A stretch of 64,000 nucleotides of DNA from Thermanaerothrix daxensis. GTDB taxonomy: Bacteria; Chloroflexota; Anaerolineae; Anaerolineales; Anaerolineaceae. This document shows positions 3,899-44,430 of this stretch, piece by piece. The stretch lies in contig NZ_LGKO01000003.1 in the NCBI RefSeq assembly GCF_001306145.1, forward strand, positions 1 to 64,000. Direction: 5' to 3'. The position numbers and the translations under genes were made by a program. The stretch's first letter is position 1; each line of letters opens with the position of its first letter. Below the pieces are notes generated by a model. The model made no database searches. It was not told the DNA's origin and saw only the letters and a program-made list of their open reading frames with translations.

Positions 3899-3932
3899 AT
3901 CTAAACACAACCCGGCTCAGGGGTTACCTTTA

Positions 3933-4062
3933 CGCCTTCTCCCATCCGGACTATACCGTCGACTCCGGAATTCCACCGGATCCTGCGTCCTGAGACGCTC
4001 GTGGGTTGTCACCACCGATCGGGAATTGGGAGGCAAACCTCCCTCACCCTGCCCCGAAGGCG
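3933..4062 (-). promoter_or_regulatory. FMN riboswitch (RFN element)
   Basis: The minus strand shows the RFN consensus blocks in order: P1 CGCCTTC, GGGGCAGGGTG, AATTCCCGATCGGTGGTGA, ACCCACGAG, GCAGGATCCGGTG, AATTCCGGAGTCGACGGTAT, AGTCCGGATGGGAGAAGGCG. P1 closes with GAAGGCG. It senses FMN and sits directly upstream of the three-gene ABC importer, with an intrinsic terminator in between. The element is about 130 bases long, as usual for the family. Confidence 0.97.
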
Positions 4063-4085
4063 TGTTATGCACTTGTAACGCCCTT

Positions 4086-5405: not shown

Positions 5406-5651
5406 ATGCCCCCCAAGGGACGAATTGTCGTTAATGATCTATACTGTAAGGGTTGTGAGTTGTGTGTCGCAGCTTGCCCGCAAGAGGTCATGGGGTTGGA
5501 TATGAGCCGCATCACCACCAAAGGTTATCATCCAGCCACGTTGATCAAAGAGGGATGCACCGGGTGTGGGGTGTGTGCCGTGGTGTGTCCGGAAGCCGCC
5601 ATCACGGTTTACCGCGAAGTCGTTCGTCCGCGCGTAGCGGCAGCGGCCTAG
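5406..5651 (+). CDS. 2-oxoacid:ferredoxin oxidoreductase delta subunit (2x 4Fe-4S)
   Basis: An 81-residue ferredoxin-like subunit with two complete CxxCxxCxxxC motifs (Cys 14, 17, 20, 24 and Cys 51, 54, 57, 61). It passes electrons from the TPP-bound 2-oxoacid to free ferredoxin. The frame is open further upstream, but AGGAGG at 5395-5400 fixes the start at ATG 5406. It is the first gene of a delta-alpha-beta-gamma operon with gaps of about 10 bases. Confidence 0.93.
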   Translation: MPPKGRIVVNDLYCKGCELCVAACPQEVMGLDMSRITTKGYHPATLIKEGCTGCGVCAVVCPEAAITVYREVVRPRVAAAA

Positions 5652-5661
5652 GAGGTGATCC

Positions 5662-6774
5662 ATGGCACGTGAGTTGTGGAAGGGCAATATTGCCATTGCC
5701 GAGGCGGCGGTTCGGGCCGGGTTGGAGGCATACTTCGGCTACCCCATCACCCCTCAAACGGAATTACTGGAGTACCTTTCCATGCGCATGCCCGAACTGG
5801 GACGCGTCTTCGTGCAGGCAGAGAGCGAACTGGGGGCCATCAACATGGTTTACGGCGCTGCCTGCACCGGCGTGCGGGTGATGACTTCCTCCTCCAGCCC
5901 GGGTATCAGCCTGATGATGGAAGGGCTCTCCTACATTGCCGGCACGGAAGTCCCCGTGGTGCTGGTAGATGTGATGCGCGGCGGCCCCGGCCTGGGCAAC
6001 ATCGCTCCGGCCCAGGGCGATTACAATCAAATCGTCCACGGTGGTGGGCACGGCGATTACCGCCCCATCGTCCTGGCGCCTTCGAACATCCAGGAAGCCA
6101 TTGACCTGACCATGCTGGCTTTCGATCTGGCCGAGGCGTATCGCGCCATCGCGGTAGTGCTCCTGGATGGCAGTTTGGGGCAAATGATGGAACCGGCAGA
6201 GATGCCTCCTCTGCGCCCCCTCAAAAGCACCTACCCCGACTGGGCCGTGCGCGGTGCCATTGGGCGCGAGCGGCGCGTGCTTTCTTCGATCTACCTCGAC
6301 CCACCCCTGGAAGAAGAAGCCAACCTGCGCATCCTGCGCCGCTGGCAGCAGGTTGAAGCCAATGAGGTGCGCTACAAGGGCTACTACCTGGAAGATGCGC
6401 GCTTCGTGGTCGTGGGGTTCGGCACGGCCGGGCGAGTGGCGCTCTCCGCAGTGCGGGCCGCGCGCGCTGAGGGCATTCGAGTGGGCTTGCTTCGCCCCAT
6501 CACCGTCAGCCCCTTCCCCAGCCGGGTGCTTCGCGAATTGGCCGACCAGGTCGAGGGCTTCCTGGTCGTTGAGATGAACACCGGCCAGATGCTTGAGGAC
6601 GTCTTGCGGGCGGTGGAAGGACGCGCGCCGGTTGAATTTTTCGCCCGCCTCGGCGGGGTTATGCCCCTGCCCGAAGAAGTCCTGGACGAAATAAAGCGCA
6701 TGGCCTCCACGCCGCTCAGCGTTGACGGCCATCCACGTGAACGCTGGTTACAACGCATGCTTCAGCCTGCTTAG
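5662..6774 (+). CDS. vorB: 2-oxoacid:ferredoxin oxidoreductase alpha subunit (VorB/KorA type)
   Basis: The 370-residue alpha subunit combines the pyrimidine-binding domain of a TPP enzyme (FGYPITPQTE, AESELGAINMVYGAA, MTSSSSPGISLM, MRGGPGLGN) with a C-terminal transketolase-like domain. With the beta, gamma and delta subunits it oxidatively decarboxylates a 2-oxoacid with CoA, reducing ferredoxin. The sequence around GGPGLGNI.P.QGDY and GGGHGDY resembles the branched-chain VorB group (3-methyl-2-oxobutanoate), but 2-oxoglutarate (KorA) cannot be excluded by eye. AGGAGGTGATCC immediately upstream is a nearly perfect ribosome binding site. Confidence 0.9.
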   Translation: MARELWKGNIAIAEAAVRAGLEAYFGYPITPQTELLEYLSMRMPELGRVFVQAESELGAINMVYGAACTGVRVMTSSSSPGISLMMEGLSYIAGTEVPVVLVDVMRGGPGLGNIAPAQGDYNQIVHGGGHGDYRPIVLAPSNIQEAIDLTMLAFDLAEAYRAIAVVLLDGSLGQMMEPAEMPPLRPLKSTYPDWAVRGAIGRERRVLSSIYLDPPLEEEANLRILRRWQQVEANEVRYKGYYLEDARFVVVGFGTAGRVALSAVRAARAEGIRVGLLRPITVSPFPSRVLRELADQVEGFLVVEMNTGQMLEDVLRAVEGRAPVEFFARLGGVMPLPEEVLDEIKRMASTPLSVDGHPRERWLQRMLQPA

Positions 6775-13005: not shown

Positions 13006-13015
13006 AGGCATAGAC

Positions 13016-13105
13016 AACGGGGAGCCCGGTGAGGCCGGGCTGAGAGGAGGGCCGTCCAGCCCTCGACCCGCAGAACCTGATCCGGGTAATGCCGGCGGAG
13101 GGACG
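13016..13105 (+). promoter_or_regulatory. TPP riboswitch (THI element)
   Basis: The THI-box consensus is complete: CGGGGAGCCC, then GGGCTGAGAGG, ACCCGCAGAACCTGATCCGG, GTAATGCCGGCGGAGGGA. It senses thiamine pyrophosphate and precedes thiN-thiB-thiP. Bases 13094-13102 (GGCGGAGGG) of the aptamer 3' strand are perfectly complementary to 13136-13144 (CCCTCCGCC) in the following terminator, which gives the antiterminator expected for the ligand-free state. Confidence 0.97.
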
Positions 13106-13132
13106 ATAACCTCAGGTTAACCGCACCTCATC

Positions 13133-17869: not shown

Positions 17870-19114
17870 TTATCGCACCAGCAGGCTGATGCTCTCAATG
17901 TGGTACGTCTGGGGAAACAGGTCAAACGGCGTCACGTGGCGCAAAGTATAACCCGCCTCCATCAGTCGGCGCAGATCGCGCGCCAGGGTCGCCGGATCGC
18001 AGGACACGTAAGCAATGCAGGTGGGCTCCAGGCGGATGAGTGCCTCCAGTGCTGCCGGCGCCATGCCGGCACGGGGCGGATCCACCACAACGACCTCCGG
18101 CCGCACATCCAACCAGGGCAGGACTTCTTCGGCCGCCCCCTGGTAGAGCGCCACATGGTCAAACTCATCCAGATTAACCGCAAAATCCTCGCAGGCACTG
18201 GGAGAAACCTCCACCCCCAGACAGCGCCCCACCCGTGGCGCCAGGAAAGCCGTGAACAACCCCACTCCGCAGTACACATCTAACAACGTCGTCTGTGGGG
18301 TCAGAGGCAGGTGCTCCAATAAATTCTGCACCATGGCGGCTGCCTGAGCGGTATTCACCTGAAAGAAGGAGGGCGCCGAAACCTTGAAGGGACGCCCCAA
18401 CACCTCCATCACCAGGTAGTCCTCCCCCGCCAGCACAATTGTTCCCGCCGGGCTGAGGTGCACAGCCGAGAGGGGAAAATCCACGCTGAATTCCGGCGCT
18501 TGGGGATCCCGGCTCTCCAGGATCAGCAGCACCTCTTCCCCGCTGCCCACGCGCAGTTCCACCCGCTCCAGGCCGGGAATGGGCTCCAGATCCAGCTGTG
18601 GCCAGACCTGATTCAGCACCGGCTCCGGCAGGTGGCACTCGCGAATGGCCACCACCTCGTGCGAATCGGGGCGATGATAACCCAAACGGCCCTGCCCGTC
18701 TAAATGGAACTGCACCGTATTGCGGTAATTCCAGGCGTTGGGAGAAGGTACCAGGGGGCGCAGCGGCGGCTCGGGGATGCCCGCCAGGCGCTGGAGTTGC
18801 TCACGTAAAATTGCCTCCTTGAGAGCGCACTGCGTGGCGTAATCCATGTGCTGGTAATGGCAGCCTCCGCACTCGCCAAAATGCGGGCAACGCGGCGAAA
18901 TGCGCTGAGCAGAGGGGCGCAGCACCTCCAACAACTCAGCACGGGCAAAAGTGCGCCTGGCTTCCACCAGGCGCACACGCACTCGCTCACCCGGCAGACC
19001 CAACGGTACAAAGACTGCCCGCCCATCCGGCAGACGCCCCAAGCAAGTGCCGCCATAGGCAGGCGAGAGCAGGTCAATCTCGTAAACCGCGTGCCTTAAA
19101 TCATGTTGACCCAA
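17870..19114 (-). CDS. rlmD: 23S rRNA (uracil-5-)-methyltransferase, RlmD/RumA family
   Basis: About 414 residues. An N-terminal TRAM domain (AYGGTCLGRLPDGRAVFV) is followed by the 4Fe-4S cysteines of RumA (CPHFGECGGC) and a SAM methyltransferase domain with DVYCGVGLFTAFLA, VVDPPRAGM and the catalytic YVSCDP. It methylates C5 of a uracil in 23S rRNA; whether U1939 or U747 is not decidable here. The reading frame stays open far upstream through the CBS gene, but that part has no homologous look. TTG 19114, preceded by GGAAG at 7 bases and overlapping the CBS stop, is the best start. Its 3' end was rebuilt by the adjacent insertion. Confidence 0.9.
   Translation of the reverse strand: MGQHDLRHAVYEIDLLSPAYGGTCLGRLPDGRAVFVPLGLPGERVRVRLVEARRTFARAELLEVLRPSAQRISPRCPHFGECGGCHYQHMDYATQCALKEAILREQLQRLAGIPEPPLRPLVPSPNAWNYRNTVQFHLDGQGRLGYHRPDSHEVVAIRECHLPEPVLNQVWPQLDLEPIPGLERVELRVGSGEEVLLILESRDPQAPEFSVDFPLSAVHLSPAGTIVLAGEDYLVMEVLGRPFKVSAPSFFQVNTAQAAAMVQNLLEHLPLTPQTTLLDVYCGVGLFTAFLAPRVGRCLGVEVSPSACEDFAVNLDEFDHVALYQGAAEEVLPWLDVRPEVVVVDPPRAGMAPAALEALIRLEPTCIAYVSCDPATLARDLRRLMEAGYTLRHVTPFDLFPQTYHIESISLLVR
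17873..17905. repeat. Right copy of the 33-bp direct repeat, forming the last 11 codons of rlmD
   Basis: Perfect match to 16662-16694 in the same orientation. On the minus strand these bases are the final 11 sense codons of the rlmD-like gene, directly followed by TAA. Confidence 0.9.
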
Positions 19115-19530
19115 ATGTAATCTTCCAGGCTCTTGATTTCGGCGTCCTTCTCCACCAGTAAACGCTTGACCACATCCCCTATGGAGATAATCCCGATCAG
19201 TTGATCGTTTTCCAGCACCGGCAAATGGCGGAAACGGTGCTGGGTCATCAGCACCATGCAGTCTTCCACGGTTTGGTCGGGGGTGACGTAATAGACCGGC
19301 GAGACCATGATCTCGCGCACCGGGGTTTGCATGGTGATCTGCCCACCGATGGCCTTGCGGGCAAAATCGCGCTCGGAAAAGATGCCCACAATCTTGCCCC
19401 CCTCCACAACCACCACTGCCCCAATGCGCTTCTCGGCCATCAATTTCAGCGCTTCCAAGACGCTCGATGAGGGCGTCACATACCACACCTGACACGATTT
19501 GTCTTCAAGTAACTGACGGACAATGCCCAT
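19096..19530 (-). CDS. CBS-domain pair protein (first of tandem paralogues)
   Basis: A 144-residue protein consisting of two CBS domains: VWYVTPSSSVLEALKLMAEKR with GGKIVGIFSERDFARKA, and VYYVTPDQTVEDCMVLMTQHRFRHLPV with DQLIGIISIGDVVK. Pairs of CBS domains bind adenosyl ligands and sense energy or redox state. Its partner is unknown. ATG 19530 gives the conserved start MGIVRQLL; upstream in-frame sequence is a shadow of the neighbouring gene. It overlaps rlmD and lies 11 bases after the second CBS gene. Confidence 0.9.
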   Translation of the reverse strand: MGIVRQLLEDKSCQVWYVTPSSSVLEALKLMAEKRIGAVVVVEGGKIVGIFSERDFARKAIGGQITMQTPVREIMVSPVYYVTPDQTVEDCMVLMTQHRFRHLPVLENDQLIGIISIGDVVKRLLVEKDAEIKSLEDYIWVNMI

Positions 19531-19541
19531 GACCTTTATCC

Positions 19542-19985
19542 CTAAATGGTGTGCGTTCGTCCGCGAATGTAATTCTCCAGGCTCTGGATGGTGATTTCTT
19601 TCTCTTCCAGCAACTGCTTGACCACATCGCCAATCGAGATGACTCCCACCAGTTGGTCCCCTTCCAGCACCGGCAGATGACGAATGTGCTTGGCGGTCAT
19701 CAGCGCCATGCACTCCTCCACCGTCTGCTGAGGGCTGACGTAATAGACCGAACGGGTCATGAAATTTTTGACCGGCTCATCCAGCAAGAGGGACTCACGG
19801 CTGGCGGCATAGCGAGCGTAATCCCGCTCCGAAAAGATGCCGACGATCTTGCCCTCTTCCAGCACCAGCACGGCGCCGATGTTCTTCTCAGCCATGAGTT
19901 TCAGGGTGTTGCGTAGCGGCGTGTCGGGGGTCACCGACCAGACCTCTCGACCTTTCATATCAAGCAGATTCTTGACAATGGCCAT
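19542..19985 (-). CDS. CBS-domain pair protein (second of tandem paralogues)
   Basis: A 147-residue protein with two CBS domains, closely similar to the downstream gene (shared LMAEK.IGAV, KIVGIFSERD.AR, TVE.CM.LMT and GD.VK.LL.EK). GAGGAG at 7 bases selects ATG 19985 over GTG 20000. A third relative is at 42293-42739. The two tandem copies and rlmD form a leftward operon with a good promoter at 20036-20063. Function is unknown; a soluble nucleotide sensor is the family expectation. Confidence 0.9.
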   Translation of the reverse strand: MAIVKNLLDMKGREVWSVTPDTPLRNTLKLMAEKNIGAVLVLEEGKIVGIFSERDYARYAASRESLLLDEPVKNFMTRSVYYVSPQQTVEECMALMTAKHIRHLPVLEGDQLVGVISIGDVVKQLLEEKEITIQSLENYIRGRTHTI

Positions 19986-20035
19986 CGCTGGGCTCCTCAC
20001 GCAGACATTGGAGTGGGAGAAAGTGCTTTACATTG

Positions 20036-20101: not shown

Positions 20102-21346
20102 TTATTCGAGCCCATCCAGCGCTTGCCGCAGGTCGGCGATCAGGTCATCCGCATCTTCCAGGCCCAACGAGAGACGCACCAGGTTATCGCGGATACCGAG
20201 GCGGCGGCGCTCTTCAGGCGGCACATCGTAGTACGACATCAGTGCGGGCTGAATGACCAAACTTTCGGTGCCCCCAAGCGAAGGGGAAATATAGGGGATT
20301 TGCAGACGATCAATAAAGCGGGCCGTGCGCCAGAGATCCCCCCGCACAGTGAACGAGACCACCCCACCGAAACCGCGCATCTGGGCCTGTGCGACGGCGT
20401 AGTCGGGGTGCGATGGCAGACCCGGATACCACACCTGCTCCACCTCCGGATGCTCGGCCAGGAACTCGGCCACGCGCTGGCCGTTCTGGTTGTGGCGCTC
20501 CACCCGCAGACTAAGCGTCTTCAGACCGCGCAGCAGCAGGTAGGCATTGTGCGGGTCGGGTGTGGCCCCGAGAATATTGTGCAGCTCCCGCACCGGAGTC
20601 ACCCACTCAGCCCGACCAGCCACAAACCCCGCCAGCAGGTCATTGTGCCCTCCCAGGTACTTGGTGGCTGAGTGAATGACCAGGTCCACGCCCCATTCCA
20701 GCGGGCGCAGGTTAAAGGGGGTGGCAAAGGTGCTATCCACCACACTGATCAGGTGATGGCGGCGGGCAATCGTGGCAAAGCGCTCGACATCCAGGACGCG
20801 CAGATAAGGGTTGGTGGGCGTTTCAGAGAGCAGCAGGCGGGTAGTTGGGCGAATGGCGGTTTCCAGCGCCTCATAATCCCCCAGCGGTACCACTGTGGTC
20901 TCAATCCCAAAGCGGGGCAAGACCTCCAGGCAGAACTGGCGCGTGCGGCGATAACAATCATCCGTCATGATCACATGATCGCCTTGACGTAGCAGCGCCA
21001 GCAGCGTCGTCGTGACCGCTGCCATGCCCGAGGCAAACTGAATTGCCGCTTCGGCGCCCTCCAGAGCCGCCAGACGGGCCTCGCAGGCGGCCACCGTGGG
21101 ATTGCCGTAGCGCCCGTATTCCAAGCGGTCGGTGGGCAGGCCGCGGGTGTGGGCTTCCTGATAGGCAACCACCTCCTCACTGTTGCGGAAGGTGTAGGTG
21201 GCCGTTTGCACCAGCGGCTCAATCAACGCGTGGTAGGGCTTACAGCGTTCGCTCCCGGCGTGGATGGCGCGGGTGGAGTCGCCCCATTCGGCAGCTTGGG
21301 CCGCCAGAGCCGGCAGGGTCGTGGTGGGAGTAGGGGTTTGGGTCAT
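20102..21346 (-). CDS. Cys/Met metabolism PLP-dependent enzyme (cystathionine gamma-synthase/lyase family)
   Basis: A 414-residue fold-type I PLP enzyme. ASGMAA binds the cofactor phosphate, VVDSTFATP holds the PLP-stacking Asp region, and SATKYLGGHND contains the Schiff-base Lys. Members make cystathionine from O-acyl-homoserine, cleave cystathionine, or make or degrade methionine; these cannot be separated by eye. The N-terminus has a short Thr/Pro-rich extension. GGAGGTGA lies just before the ATG. A 240-base leader upstream holds a Met-rich small ORF, a competing pairing and a terminator, which would fit a methionine-biosynthetic role. Confidence 0.92.
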   Translation of the reverse strand: MTQTPTPTTTLPALAAQAAEWGDSTRAIHAGSERCKPYHALIEPLVQTATYTFRNSEEVVAYQEAHTRGLPTDRLEYGRYGNPTVAACEARLAALEGAEAAIQFASGMAAVTTTLLALLRQGDHVIMTDDCYRRTRQFCLEVLPRFGIETTVVPLGDYEALETAIRPTTRLLLSETPTNPYLRVLDVERFATIARRHHLISVVDSTFATPFNLRPLEWGVDLVIHSATKYLGGHNDLLAGFVAGRAEWVTPVRELHNILGATPDPHNAYLLLRGLKTLSLRVERHNQNGQRVAEFLAEHPEVEQVWYPGLPSHPDYAVAQAQMRGFGGVVSFTVRGDLWRTARFIDRLQIPYISPSLGGTESLVIQPALMSYYDVPPEERRRLGIRDNLVRLSLGLEDADDLIADLRQALDGLE

Positions 21347-21375
21347 GGGATCACCTCCAGGGGTAGAGTAAGGAT

Positions 21376-21411
21376 AAACAAAACGGGCTGCCCACTTTGG
21401 CAGGCAGCCCG
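21376..21411 (-). terminator. Intrinsic terminator in the leader of the transsulfuration gene
   Basis: Minus-strand stem CGGGCTGCC (21411-21403)/GGCAGCCCG (21392-21384) with a 10-base loop, followed by TTTTGTTTA. It lies 37 bases before the structural gene. Its 5' arm region GCTGCCTGCC (21408-21399) is also fully complementary to 21481-21472 inside the small ORF. Confidence 0.85.
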
Positions 21412-21446
21412 CTGGTTGACTCCACTTGCGTTTCAGGGATAAGGAT

Positions 21447-21569
21447 TCAGATCACTTTTCCCTCCGCAAGCGCTGCCTGCCGGGAAAAGCGGCGCATGAC
21501 CATCGCCATCATCATGCCCATGGCGATAAGAAGAACGGCAGATGCAGCACTTGCGAATTGGATACTCAT
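21447..21569 (-). CDS. 40-residue Met-rich peptide, candidate attenuation leader peptide
   Basis: The ORF starts at ATG 21569, 28 bases after a strong promoter. It has one hydrophobic stretch, and six of residues 17-25 are methionine (MGMMMAMVM), followed by RRFSRQAALAEGKVI-stop. The Met cluster ends seven codons before a 10-base element (21481-21472) able to disrupt the downstream terminator. This is the geometry of an amino-acid leader peptide and the downstream gene belongs to Cys/Met metabolism. The alternative is a small single-span membrane protein with its own terminator, since Met-rich helices also occur there. An AGAGG 14 bases upstream is a rather distant ribosome site. Confidence 0.6.
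   Translation of the reverse strand: MSIQFASAASAVLLIAMGMMMAMVMRRFSRQAALAEGKVI
21472..21481 (-). promoter_or_regulatory. Candidate antiterminator arm
   Basis: Minus-strand GGCAGGCAGC, exact complement of GCTGCCTGCC at 21408-21399 in the terminator 5' arm. Pairing gives 10 bp and excludes the terminator. It sits within the small ORF just downstream of the Met cluster. Confidence 0.6.
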
Positions 21570-21596
21570 AGTCGTAATCGCGACCTCTTGCGCCTG

Positions 21597-21624
21597 ATTA
21601 TAGGCAGAATGTGGAAAAAGTCAA
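21597..21624 (-). promoter_or_regulatory. Strong sigma-70-type promoter of the leader and transsulfuration gene
   Basis: Minus-strand -35 TTGACT (21624-21619) and -10 TATAAT (21602-21597), spacing 16. It gives a leader of about 240 bases before the structural gene. Confidence 0.8.
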
Positions 21625-21747: not shown

Positions 21748-22146
21748 TCAGTGTAGTTTCTCGACTCGGTTCAAAAGCGTCCCTTTCAGGTAAGCCTGCA
21801 CGGCTTCATCAATACTGGCAATCTCTGTGATGATCGGCTGGATACCCTTTGAACGCAAATATTCATACGCACCCATACCCATTCCACGCGCCAGCAAGAC
21901 CTGGCAGTCGGAGATAGCCTCGACCATGCGGGCATGTCGCGACTGCGCGGCGGGATCAAAACCATGGCCACGTGGGTCCTCACCTTCTGTGTGAGTTTCC
22001 CCACTAAATTGGGTGTGACCCATTTTGTCACGCTTTTCACGGGCAATTATGGCATCATTTTCAACCGTCACCACAACATAAAAAGGCGCCCGGCCAAAAT
22101 GCTGACTGATGGTAACCCCATCTTCCGAAACCGCTGCAATTTTCAT
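21748..22146 (-). CDS. NifX/NifB-type dinitrogenase cofactor-like protein
   Basis: A 132-residue single-domain protein of the NifX/NafY (Nitro_FeMo-Co) family: MKIAAVSEDGVTISQHFGRAPFYVVV at the N-terminus and ARGMGMGAYEYLRSKGIQPIIT near the C-terminus. The family binds Fe-Mo or other metal-sulfur clusters or their precursors; many members lie outside nitrogen-fixation loci. No nif genes are visible here, so a general metal-cluster carrier is more likely. The middle is rich in His, Glu and Asp. AGGAGGT before ATG 22146 fixes the start. It is the last gene of a leftward run with the FmdE-like and TSUP genes. Confidence 0.85.
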   Translation of the reverse strand: MKIAAVSEDGVTISQHFGRAPFYVVVTVENDAIIAREKRDKMGHTQFSGETHTEGEDPRGHGFDPAAQSRHARMVEAISDCQVLLARGMGMGAYEYLRSKGIQPIITEIASIDEAVQAYLKGTLLNRVEKLH

Positions 22147-22177
22147 GGGTTGACCTCCTGACTCGGTTTGCTTTCGG

Positions 22178-22798
22178 CTACCGTTCGATTTTGACAACTT
22201 TTTCATATCCGGAACAGGGAATGCACACCGGCTGACCCTCCTTAATGCGCACGTAACGGTCGAACACGTACTCGCCACACACACTGCACTTGGTCTTGTT
22301 GAACGAGCCTTTGACCGGGGTATAAGTGAAATCGGGCTTTGATTCAACCTTGAAAATGGCCTCATCGGGCTGGTCATAGACCCACTGAAGCACTTCCCGG
22401 CGCACGTCCAACGGAATCTGAGAAGGCTCAATGCCCTTCTTGCGATAGACAAAGAATTCAAACCTGCCCATGGCATCAATAAACTCAGGTAGTAGCGAGT
22501 AACGAACAGCCCCCTTATTTGGATGATAGAATGTTGCTGCCAATTTGCCGTAGAAAGTCTTGGCCATCAACAACTTACCGTAGGTAGCCCCAGTAGCAAT
22601 TTGCATCCCATCCATCATACACGTCTGAGGATGGCCTTCGCCTAGTTCAGGGAAGACAAAAAATCCATGATCGCGTTCCTTTTCAATCCCCAGGTATACA
22701 AGCGCAAGTTTACCCATGCGGTAGCCAATAGGCATAAATGGACACTCGTGGCCATGAAATTCAAAAGCCCATTCGGGGGGAATAAAAGGTGTTGTCAT
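22178..22798 (-). CDS. FmdE-like protein with C-terminal zinc finger
   Basis: A 206-residue protein. The N-terminal FmdE domain has FHGHECPFMPIGYRMG and GEGHPQTCMMDGMQIATGAT, with the conserved Cys/His cluster; the C-terminus has a CxxC...CxxC zinc ribbon (CSVCGEYV...CIPCSGY). The name comes from the molybdenum formylmethanofuran dehydrogenase operon of methanogens, but bacterial members have no settled function and often lie near molybdopterin enzymes. Here it sits between a TSUP permease (26 bases upstream) and the NifX-like gene (31 bases downstream), suggesting metal-sulfur handling. Confidence 0.85.
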   Translation of the reverse strand: MTTPFIPPEWAFEFHGHECPFMPIGYRMGKLALVYLGIEKERDHGFFVFPELGEGHPQTCMMDGMQIATGATYGKLLMAKTFYGKLAATFYHPNKGAVRYSLLPEFIDAMGRFEFFVYRKKGIEPSQIPLDVRREVLQWVYDQPDEAIFKVESKPDFTYTPVKGSFNKTKCSVCGEYVFDRYVRIKEGQPVCIPCSGYEKVVKIER

Positions 22799-44049: not shown

Positions 44050-44159
44050 AGCGAAACCCTTTCTAAGGCAGTAGATAAAGCCGTTGCCGTGGAACTCCCC
44101 ACACCCGGCACAACATGCTCCACGCCGCTTGGCGCAGAGGCCCCGCCGGGGTAACAACT

Positions 44160-44430
44160 GGCCGGTTTCGCTATTGGCTCGGCGCAGGCCCTCTCGGCAA
44201 CAAACCGATAAGCGACCAAAAAACAGACCTGCGCGTCATCGCCGCCAATTGAAGATCATCTCCTTGCACGGCGGAAAAAACACAAACCGGCCTTGGATGG
44301 TAAGGCCGGTTTCGTCACTGGCTCCCCGGGGGGGTGGCCCAGACCTTTCGGGGTCTGGGCGGGCGACCATCACGCACCGCACCCGGCTCAACGCCGCCTG
44401 CAAGGAAGAACATCCACAACAGTGATTAGA
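44160..44430 (-). promoter_or_regulatory. Structured leader with two similar motifs, candidate riboswitch or attenuator
   Basis: Read on the minus strand, GAGCCAGTGACGAAACCGGCC (44324-44304) recurs as a close copy (44180-44160), with 18 of 21 bases identical and 144 bases between them. Each copy is preceded by GGTCGC and a hairpin; the first has a perfect 9-bp stem with a CCGAAA loop (44360-44337). The end of the first motif is the 5' arm of an intrinsic terminator. I could not match it to a known riboswitch class. Confidence 0.55.
44275..44312 (-). terminator. Intrinsic terminator inside the surface-protein leader
   Basis: A perfect 11-bp stem AAACCGGCCTT/AAGGCCGGTTT with a 7-base loop, then GTGTTTTTT. 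It lies between the promoter at 44444-44471 and the surface-protein start at 44049, so expression needs read-through. Confidence 0.85.

Follow-up and report, generated by a model that had tools for sequence, protein, structure and literature searches.

The minus strand of the window (the whole stretch analysed here, the first 64,000 nt of Thermanaerothrix daxensis contig NZ_LGKO01000003.1) carries, in this order, a promoter, a 40-codon Met-rich open reading frame (ORF), an antiterminator, a terminator and a gene for a plant-type cystathionine gamma-synthase (CGS). A first-pass annotation made from the letters alone had described a strong promoter at this place, which we find as TTGACT-16-TATAAT at 21624..21597 (-), matching 11 of 12 consensus bases. 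The 40-codon ORF that it reported is present at 21569..21447 (-), where it translates as MSIQFASAASAVLLIAMGMMMAMVMRRFSRQAALAEGKVI and has six Met within residues 17-25 (MGMMMAMVM), and we confirmed the exact 10-base complementarity claimed between the ORF and the terminator 5' arm region, with GGCAGGCAGC at 21481..21472 inside the leader ORF and GCTGCCTGCC at 21408..21399 in the terminator. The terminator itself (21413..21382, -) has a 14-pair stem followed by a T-rich tail, and the gene said to lie beyond it, for a Cys/Met-metabolism PLP enzyme, matches PF01053 and starts at 21346 (-). One element was absent from that annotation: the 5' part of the ORF (21555..21536) pairs with antiterminator segment 2 (21482..21465), so that the set of 1:2, 2:3 and 3:4 helices is complete. 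The features are as follows.

21619..21624, minus strand: -35 hexamer TTGACT of the leader promoter (from the sequence)
21597..21602, minus strand: -10 hexamer TATAAT of the leader promoter (from the sequence)
21447..21569, minus strand: leader ORF, 40 codons and stop, six internal Met codons (ORF; equivalent position at 18 other CGS loci)
21536..21555, minus strand: segment 1, forming a protector helix with segment 2 (leader folding; swap test 0/50,000)
21495..21521, minus strand: Met control-codon cluster, MGMMMAMVM (ORF translation; leader alignment)
21465..21482, minus strand: segment 2, antiterminator half (starts 15 nt past the cluster's final Met codon, counted from its first base)
21400..21413, minus strand: segment 3, terminator 5' arm and alternative partner of segment 2 (terminator search; swap test)
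21382..21395, minus strand: segment 4, terminator 3' arm (terminator search; shuffles)
21372..21381, minus strand: T-rich terminator tail (terminator search)
20102..21346, minus strand: putatively regulated gene, plant-type CGS, a Cys/Met-metabolism PLP enzyme, PF01053 (domain and structure matches)

The window and a further 42.5 kb of its own genome (106 kb in total) contain 1511 short ORFs of 15-70 aa on the two strands, and this leader alone among them has at least four Met in ten residues. A 10-base complement to the terminator 5' arm was reached by 2 of 5000 base-shuffled ORFs, the terminator scored above all 60 of its 60 shuffles, and the 221-nt leader folded with z = -4.0, none of 200 shuffles being equally stable. 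No Rfam family matched at its gathering score at the position of the leader, and no T-box did so in the window, at the Met-leader CGS loci or at ten methionyl-tRNA synthetase (MetRS) loci. Elsewhere in the window, FMN, TPP and c-di-GMP-II-GAG riboswitches matched above their gathering scores at 3930-4065 (-), 13008-13120 (+) and 44151-44255 (-), respectively. On the strand of the CGS gene, two adjoining CBS-domain proteins are encoded downstream of it (19096-20000, -), and a dinitrogenase-cofactor-type protein (PF02579) and an FmdE-type protein (PF02663) upstream of the leader (21751-22798, -).

None of the NCBIfam models listed reaches its curated cut-off with the product of the CGS gene. Of the solved structures, the tobacco enzyme 1i41/1qgn, deposited under the name cystathionine gamma-synthase, matches it best (409.7 bits vs 336.9 for the next best). 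The T. daxensis genome gave no match to MetA (12 of the 41 genomes searched have one), only short weak matches to MetX (a model whose cut-off was reached by none of the 41 genomes) and a match above cut-off to homoserine kinase. This combination fits a plant-type CGS that may be fed by O-phosphohomoserine, as in plants; one Met-leader relative (G013) does have MetA.

Leader peptides ahead of CGS relatives

We looked for CGS relatives in 41 genomes, 35 of which had a match to the enzyme family, and across the class, where 179 of 396 genomes matched at E <= 1e-100 and where 30 and 77 loci among the matches listed were examined, other listed rows being left aside; they were also sought in named genome contigs, keeping the best 80 of 592. 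A filter of at least 48% identity and 350 bits was passed by 122 of 138 loci. We read 199 CGS upstream regions, among which eight pairs are identical over the last 150 nt, and a Met leader stands in 16 of them, representing 15 distinct leaders (L003 and L059 come from one organism, Bellilinea caldifistulae). The 96-aa frame of L158 and the 45-aa frame of L201, each with 3 Met in 10 residues, were not scored as leaders.

A profile built from the 15 leader peptides was searched against 400 genomes of the order and matched 22 of them at E <= 0.01. The 15 matches at E < 1e-4 are all located ahead of CGS: 11 of them are members of the profile, and four new ones (L248, L249, L250 and L252) share the layout of the T. 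daxensis leader. The first-pass annotation had held that relatives keeping the small ORF without its terminator or target gene would count against its reading, and none was found among these 15. Weaker profile matches were inspected at 14 and 19 loci, where L259, ahead of a MetRS gene, alone was convincing. Searches of 396 genomes of the class and 400 of the phylum gave no new target, a weak negative given that the profile misses diverged leaders.

In total, 18 further CGS leaders of the Met type were found in Chloroflexota, which brings their number to 19. All 19 have a Met cluster, with 3-7 Met per 9 residues, and in an alignment of 15 leader peptides the Met columns alone are conserved, the other residues drifting. 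A promoter-like pair, found with a pattern of our own used without a shuffled control, precedes 18 of the 19. In these 18 the ATG lies 6-29 nt past the -10 box, and the shortness of this distance in 12 of them (6-11 nt) suggests that several leaders may be nearly leaderless, with almost no 5' UTR.

Alternative helices and the position of the ribosome

A terminator begins 19-46 nt past the leader stop codon at all 19 CGS leaders, and in 18 of them it beats 60 of 60 dinucleotide shuffles; the terminator of L011, whose stem was set by hand and whose loop is longer than the scorer permits, has a score that was reached by 19 of 60 shuffles. Counted from the first base of the cluster's final Met codon, the start of segment 2 lies at 13-24 nt in all 19 leaders, the search having covered distances of 12-52 nt. 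When the search ran right from the last Met, segment 2 began at 13-22 nt in 13 of 15 leaders, and the best 2:3 duplex began 5 nt (L003) and 3 nt (L074) past that codon. The leading edge of a ribosome with the last Met codon in its A site fits a gap of 13-24 nt.

Pairing was assessed by swap tests, in which the partners of segments within a leader were compared by permutation with partners from other leaders. These tests were chosen because related leaders resemble one another, and they replaced single-leader duplex energies because the latter are weak in GC-rich sequence: 2:3 energies set against shuffles had given p < 0.05 in 5 of 15 leaders and 0.05 in one more, and the L042 energy was worse than its own shuffle mean. 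For the 2:3 helix, swapped partners did as well as the leaders' own in 2 of 50,000 permutations of 12 CGS representatives and in 0 of 50,000 of all 19 leaders; an earlier version had given 1 of 20,000 (14 loci) and 4 of 20,000 (10 representatives). For the 1:2 helix the count was 0 of 50,000 for the 12 representatives and 0 for all 19, and the 1:3 control gave 27,231 of 50,000 and 12,249, respectively. Some dependence among the representatives remains, L008 and L070, for example, belonging to one well-supported group. The swap tests thus bring out matched differences between the arms, where the first-pass annotation had proposed to look for compensatory changes in relatives; the rest of the alignment check that it proposed came out in support, with Met cluster, terminator and both pairings kept and other codons drifting.

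We also folded the leaders with the ribosome-covered region masked. A ribosome halted at the final Met lets 2:3 pair in all 19 while arm 4 is still to be transcribed, and with the ribosome at the stop codon segment 2 is covered in 17 of 19 and the 3:4 terminator forms in 19 of 19. Folding without a ribosome leaves 1:2 the winner in 9 leaders, 2:3 in 9 and neither in 1. Once arm 4 is present, the equilibrium favours 3:4 over 2:3 in 15 of 19 leaders, that of T. daxensis among them, and does so even if the ribosome sits at the last Met; antitermination must therefore be kinetic, taking place during transcription. Classical attenuators likewise act during transcription.

Comparison between loci thus establishes the parts, their order and spacing and the 1:2 and 2:3 pairings at the level of sequence, and the resemblance to trp, his and leu attenuators proposed for this locus gains support from the 19 CGS leaders together. 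We consider it very likely that the region is a ribosome-mediated transcription attenuator with methionine control codons, placed before CGS, and that it probably permits transcription to read through when Met-tRNA is scarce. From this architecture we infer that the leader is translated, that ribosomes stall on it, and that the response depends on methionine and has the direction given in the following scheme. Transcription and translation of the leader would be coupled. With plentiful Met-tRNA, the ribosome would pass the Met cluster, reach the stop codon and cover segment 2, whereupon segments 3 and 4 would pair, the terminator would form and CGS would stay untranscribed. With scarce Met-tRNA, it would stall in the Met cluster with its leading edge just short of segment 2, so that 2:3 could pair while segment 4 has yet to be transcribed, and RNA polymerase would continue into CGS. 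If no ribosome were present, 1:2 could pair and termination would be favoured.

SAM-I riboswitches at CGS and Met leaders at MetRS

The position of the Met leader before CGS is often held by a SAM-I riboswitch (RF00162). Scans with cmscan and Rfam detected SAM-I in 5 of 16 and 17 of 20 CGS loci tested; at its gathering score, the 19 Met-leader CGS loci (9 and 10, in two cmscan runs) and the place of the leader in the window were all without a match. Our first SAM-I pattern was too strict, as the 17 of 20 came from loci that it had left without either element. A looser motif recovered all 21 cmscan-positive loci in the set and gave no match in the 15 Met leaders or in 199 base-shuffled regions, and with it the 199 CGS upstream regions divide into 133 with the SAM-I motif, 16 with a Met leader, 50 with neither and 0 scored as having both; the 45-aa frame of L201, with its 3 Met, lies in a region that also bears the SAM-I motif. 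Many loci with neither element come from other phyla, judging by record titles, or lie at contig ends, and close CGS orthologues lacking both the leader and the motif also exist, such as L031 (68.8% identical) and L009. L081 and L113 are likewise CGS orthologues with no Met leader or SAM-I motif.

A CGS tree of 77 rows, built by a quick method, requires 4 changes of the Met-leader state, 3 of them imposed by well-supported branches, and a single Met-leader clade is rejected (p-AU 5.6e-5); the long branches of L014, L074 and L011 leave some placements unsure. The number of changes and the rejected clade make repeated replacement probable, and this comparison of orthologues therefore brings out an exchange in which Met leader and SAM-I riboswitch probably replaced each other at CGS more than once. 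The T. daxensis genome also has SAM-I riboswitches of its own, at L139 (about 5659-5776) and L140 (about 5573-5698). Behind them lie a metH-like gene, whose downstream neighbour has a metF-like part, and a metK-like gene; we assigned these names by reading the translations. With SAM-I at these genes and a Met leader at CGS, the cell seems to divide its control between SAM sensing, for the metH-like and metK-like genes, and Met-codon attenuation, for CGS.

A second target came from the weak profile match L259, which lies 86 nt upstream of a MetRS gene (TIGR00398, above cut-off). In the related family f8, MetRS is present in 18 of 21 genomes and a Met-rich leader precedes it in 17 of the 18. Beyond f8, 30 loci among the matches listed from 61 relatives yielded one clear Met leader (L281) and one weak one of 19 aa (L284), which was kept though weak; L288, where a frame of 91 aa containing a run of Met precedes MetRS, was set aside. 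The upstream region of the MetRS gene of T. daxensis itself, when read, had no Met leader. The leaders retained are given in one line.

L263-L276, L278-L281 and, weakly, L284, upstream of MetRS: Met-rich MetRS leaders (ORF and terminator-like hairpin)

All 19 MetRS leaders examined, including all 17 of f8, have a terminator-like hairpin (scored without a shuffled control), which ends 31-71 nt before the gene, or 133-301 nt before it in L270, L276 and L278. Segment 2 lies 12-39 nt past the last Met in these 19 leaders. The 1:2 swap test was significant (173 of 50,000 for 12 representatives and 22 for all 19) and the 2:3 test was not (2692 of 50,000 and 3409), because its arms hardly vary; the 1:3 control gave no signal (43,671 and 48,389 of 50,000, respectively). 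Since the target here is the synthetase, the sensed signal points to Met-tRNA charging rather than SAM.

Three other explanations were weighed against attenuation at Met codons. We regard it as very unlikely that the leader acts by nascent-peptide arrest, the peptide itself sensing SAM or methionine in the exit tunnel in the manner of the MTO1 region of plant CGS1. The idea draws on the SAM-induced translation arrest described for plant CGS1 in the relevant passages of PMC8137854, and on the fact that the closest solved relative of the T. daxensis enzyme is a plant-type CGS; the leaders, however, have no conserved peptide motif beyond Met, the spacing from Met cluster to antiterminator suits stalls in decoding at Met codons, and MetRS as second target indicates Met-tRNA. 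Still less credible is an ordinary constitutive terminator, or a leader responsive to general translation speed, in which the Met codons would be incidental: single-leader pairing energies often fall inside the shuffled range and 3:4 prevails thermodynamically in 15 of 19 leaders, as such a reading would have it, yet Met is the sole residue with conserved columns in the 15 leaders aligned, SAM-I riboswitches substitute at the same gene, and the MetRS leaders are equally enriched in Met. The alternative that the first-pass annotation itself had raised, a small Met-rich membrane peptide ending at its own terminator and unrelated to control of the next gene, is the least probable, and we rejected it, because for all the hydrophobic character around the Met cluster and the fact that intrinsic terminators also end genes, the Met columns alone are conserved and non-Met residues drift over 15 leaders, the ORF is constrained as RNA by the 1:2 and 2:3 pairings that are kept, all 15 order-wide matches at E < 1e-4 (11 of them profile members) lie upstream of CGS, and the distance between Met cluster and segment 2 matches a ribosome footprint.

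Relation to known systems and to methionine control

The leader-peptide attenuators of the Proteobacteria (trp, his, leu, thr and phe) are the classical type. The proposed Met attenuator resembles them in its control-codon ORF, its mutually exclusive 1:2, 2:3 and 3:4 helices and its intrinsic terminator, as well as in having a target that makes or charges the sensed amino acid. It differs in its phylum, Chloroflexota, in a control amino acid, methionine, that is also the initiating one, and in that 12 of 18 CGS leaders have their ATG 6-11 nt past the -10 box and so probably almost no 5' UTR. Leader-peptide systems are discussed in passages of PMC2965389 and PMC1262725. The former, a survey of premature terminators, reports that the same gene may change its sensing system, for instance when a leader peptide replaces a T-box, and the relevant part of the latter, on Actinobacteria, reports that no conserved RNA structures were seen before methionine operons.

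The first-pass annotation had stated that no Met-codon leader of this kind was known in Chloroflexota, which stands in so far as our search of open-licence papers found none in that phylum, though one may be described in other papers; for other phyla, proposals do exist. The sections of PMC3847290 on Campylobacter jejuni MetL, which in 2013 put it forward as an attenuator, describe an ORF of 20 aa that precedes metBA and contains three Met codons, and whose RNA ends shortly past the leader stop codon, and a passage of PMC11955535 reports its start site by Ribo-seq and suggests a further Met-rich mini-ORF, CJsORF19, before a D-methionine transporter gene. Compared by description, MetL and the present leaders are alike as short Met-codon ORFs before methionine genes and as proposed attenuators; MetL has other target genes, is reported in those sections only from C. 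jejuni, C. coli and C. doylei, and comes there with no alternative-helix analysis that we saw. A weaker proposal, in the relevant text of PMC8079986, is the putative methionine-dependent leader metL before metNIQ in Streptomyces lividans, which differs in that it contains two internal Met codons, has a transporter as target and, as its authors state, lacks a typical Rho-independent terminator. The SAM-I riboswitch occupies the same position before CGS orthologues and differs in being a SAM aptamer with no leader ORF. The MTO1 region of plant CGS1, as described in part of PMC8137854, is alike in that ribosome arrest controls the same type of enzyme, and unlike in that the arrest answers SAM, lowers expression through mRNA degradation and lies within the coding region. 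The mechanism is thus of the classical trp/his type, and a methionine version has already been proposed in other phyla; what is apparently new is the phylum, the two targets (CGS and MetRS), the evidence for three helices and the exchange with SAM-I.

A wider reading, which we put forward tentatively as possible though short of probable, is that the Anaerolineae have a Met-tRNA-sensing regulon comprising CGS and MetRS, and that attenuators and SAM-I riboswitches were swapped several times at one gene, switching its enzyme between charged-tRNA and SAM sensing. As methionine is also the initiating amino acid, the response might then have two phases: mild Met shortage would stall ribosomes and open the gene, and severe shortage would stop initiation, let 1:2 form and close it.

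The regulators usually named for methionine control of genes in bacteria are SAM riboswitches, T-boxes and repressors. The leaders described here would extend leader-peptide attenuation to Chloroflexota and to methionyl-tRNA synthetase, and they would provide a clean test case of a switch whose control amino acid also starts translation. With one orthologous gene under either a SAM riboswitch or a putative Met-codon attenuator, the sensing of charged tRNA and the sensing of SAM may be compared at a single enzyme.
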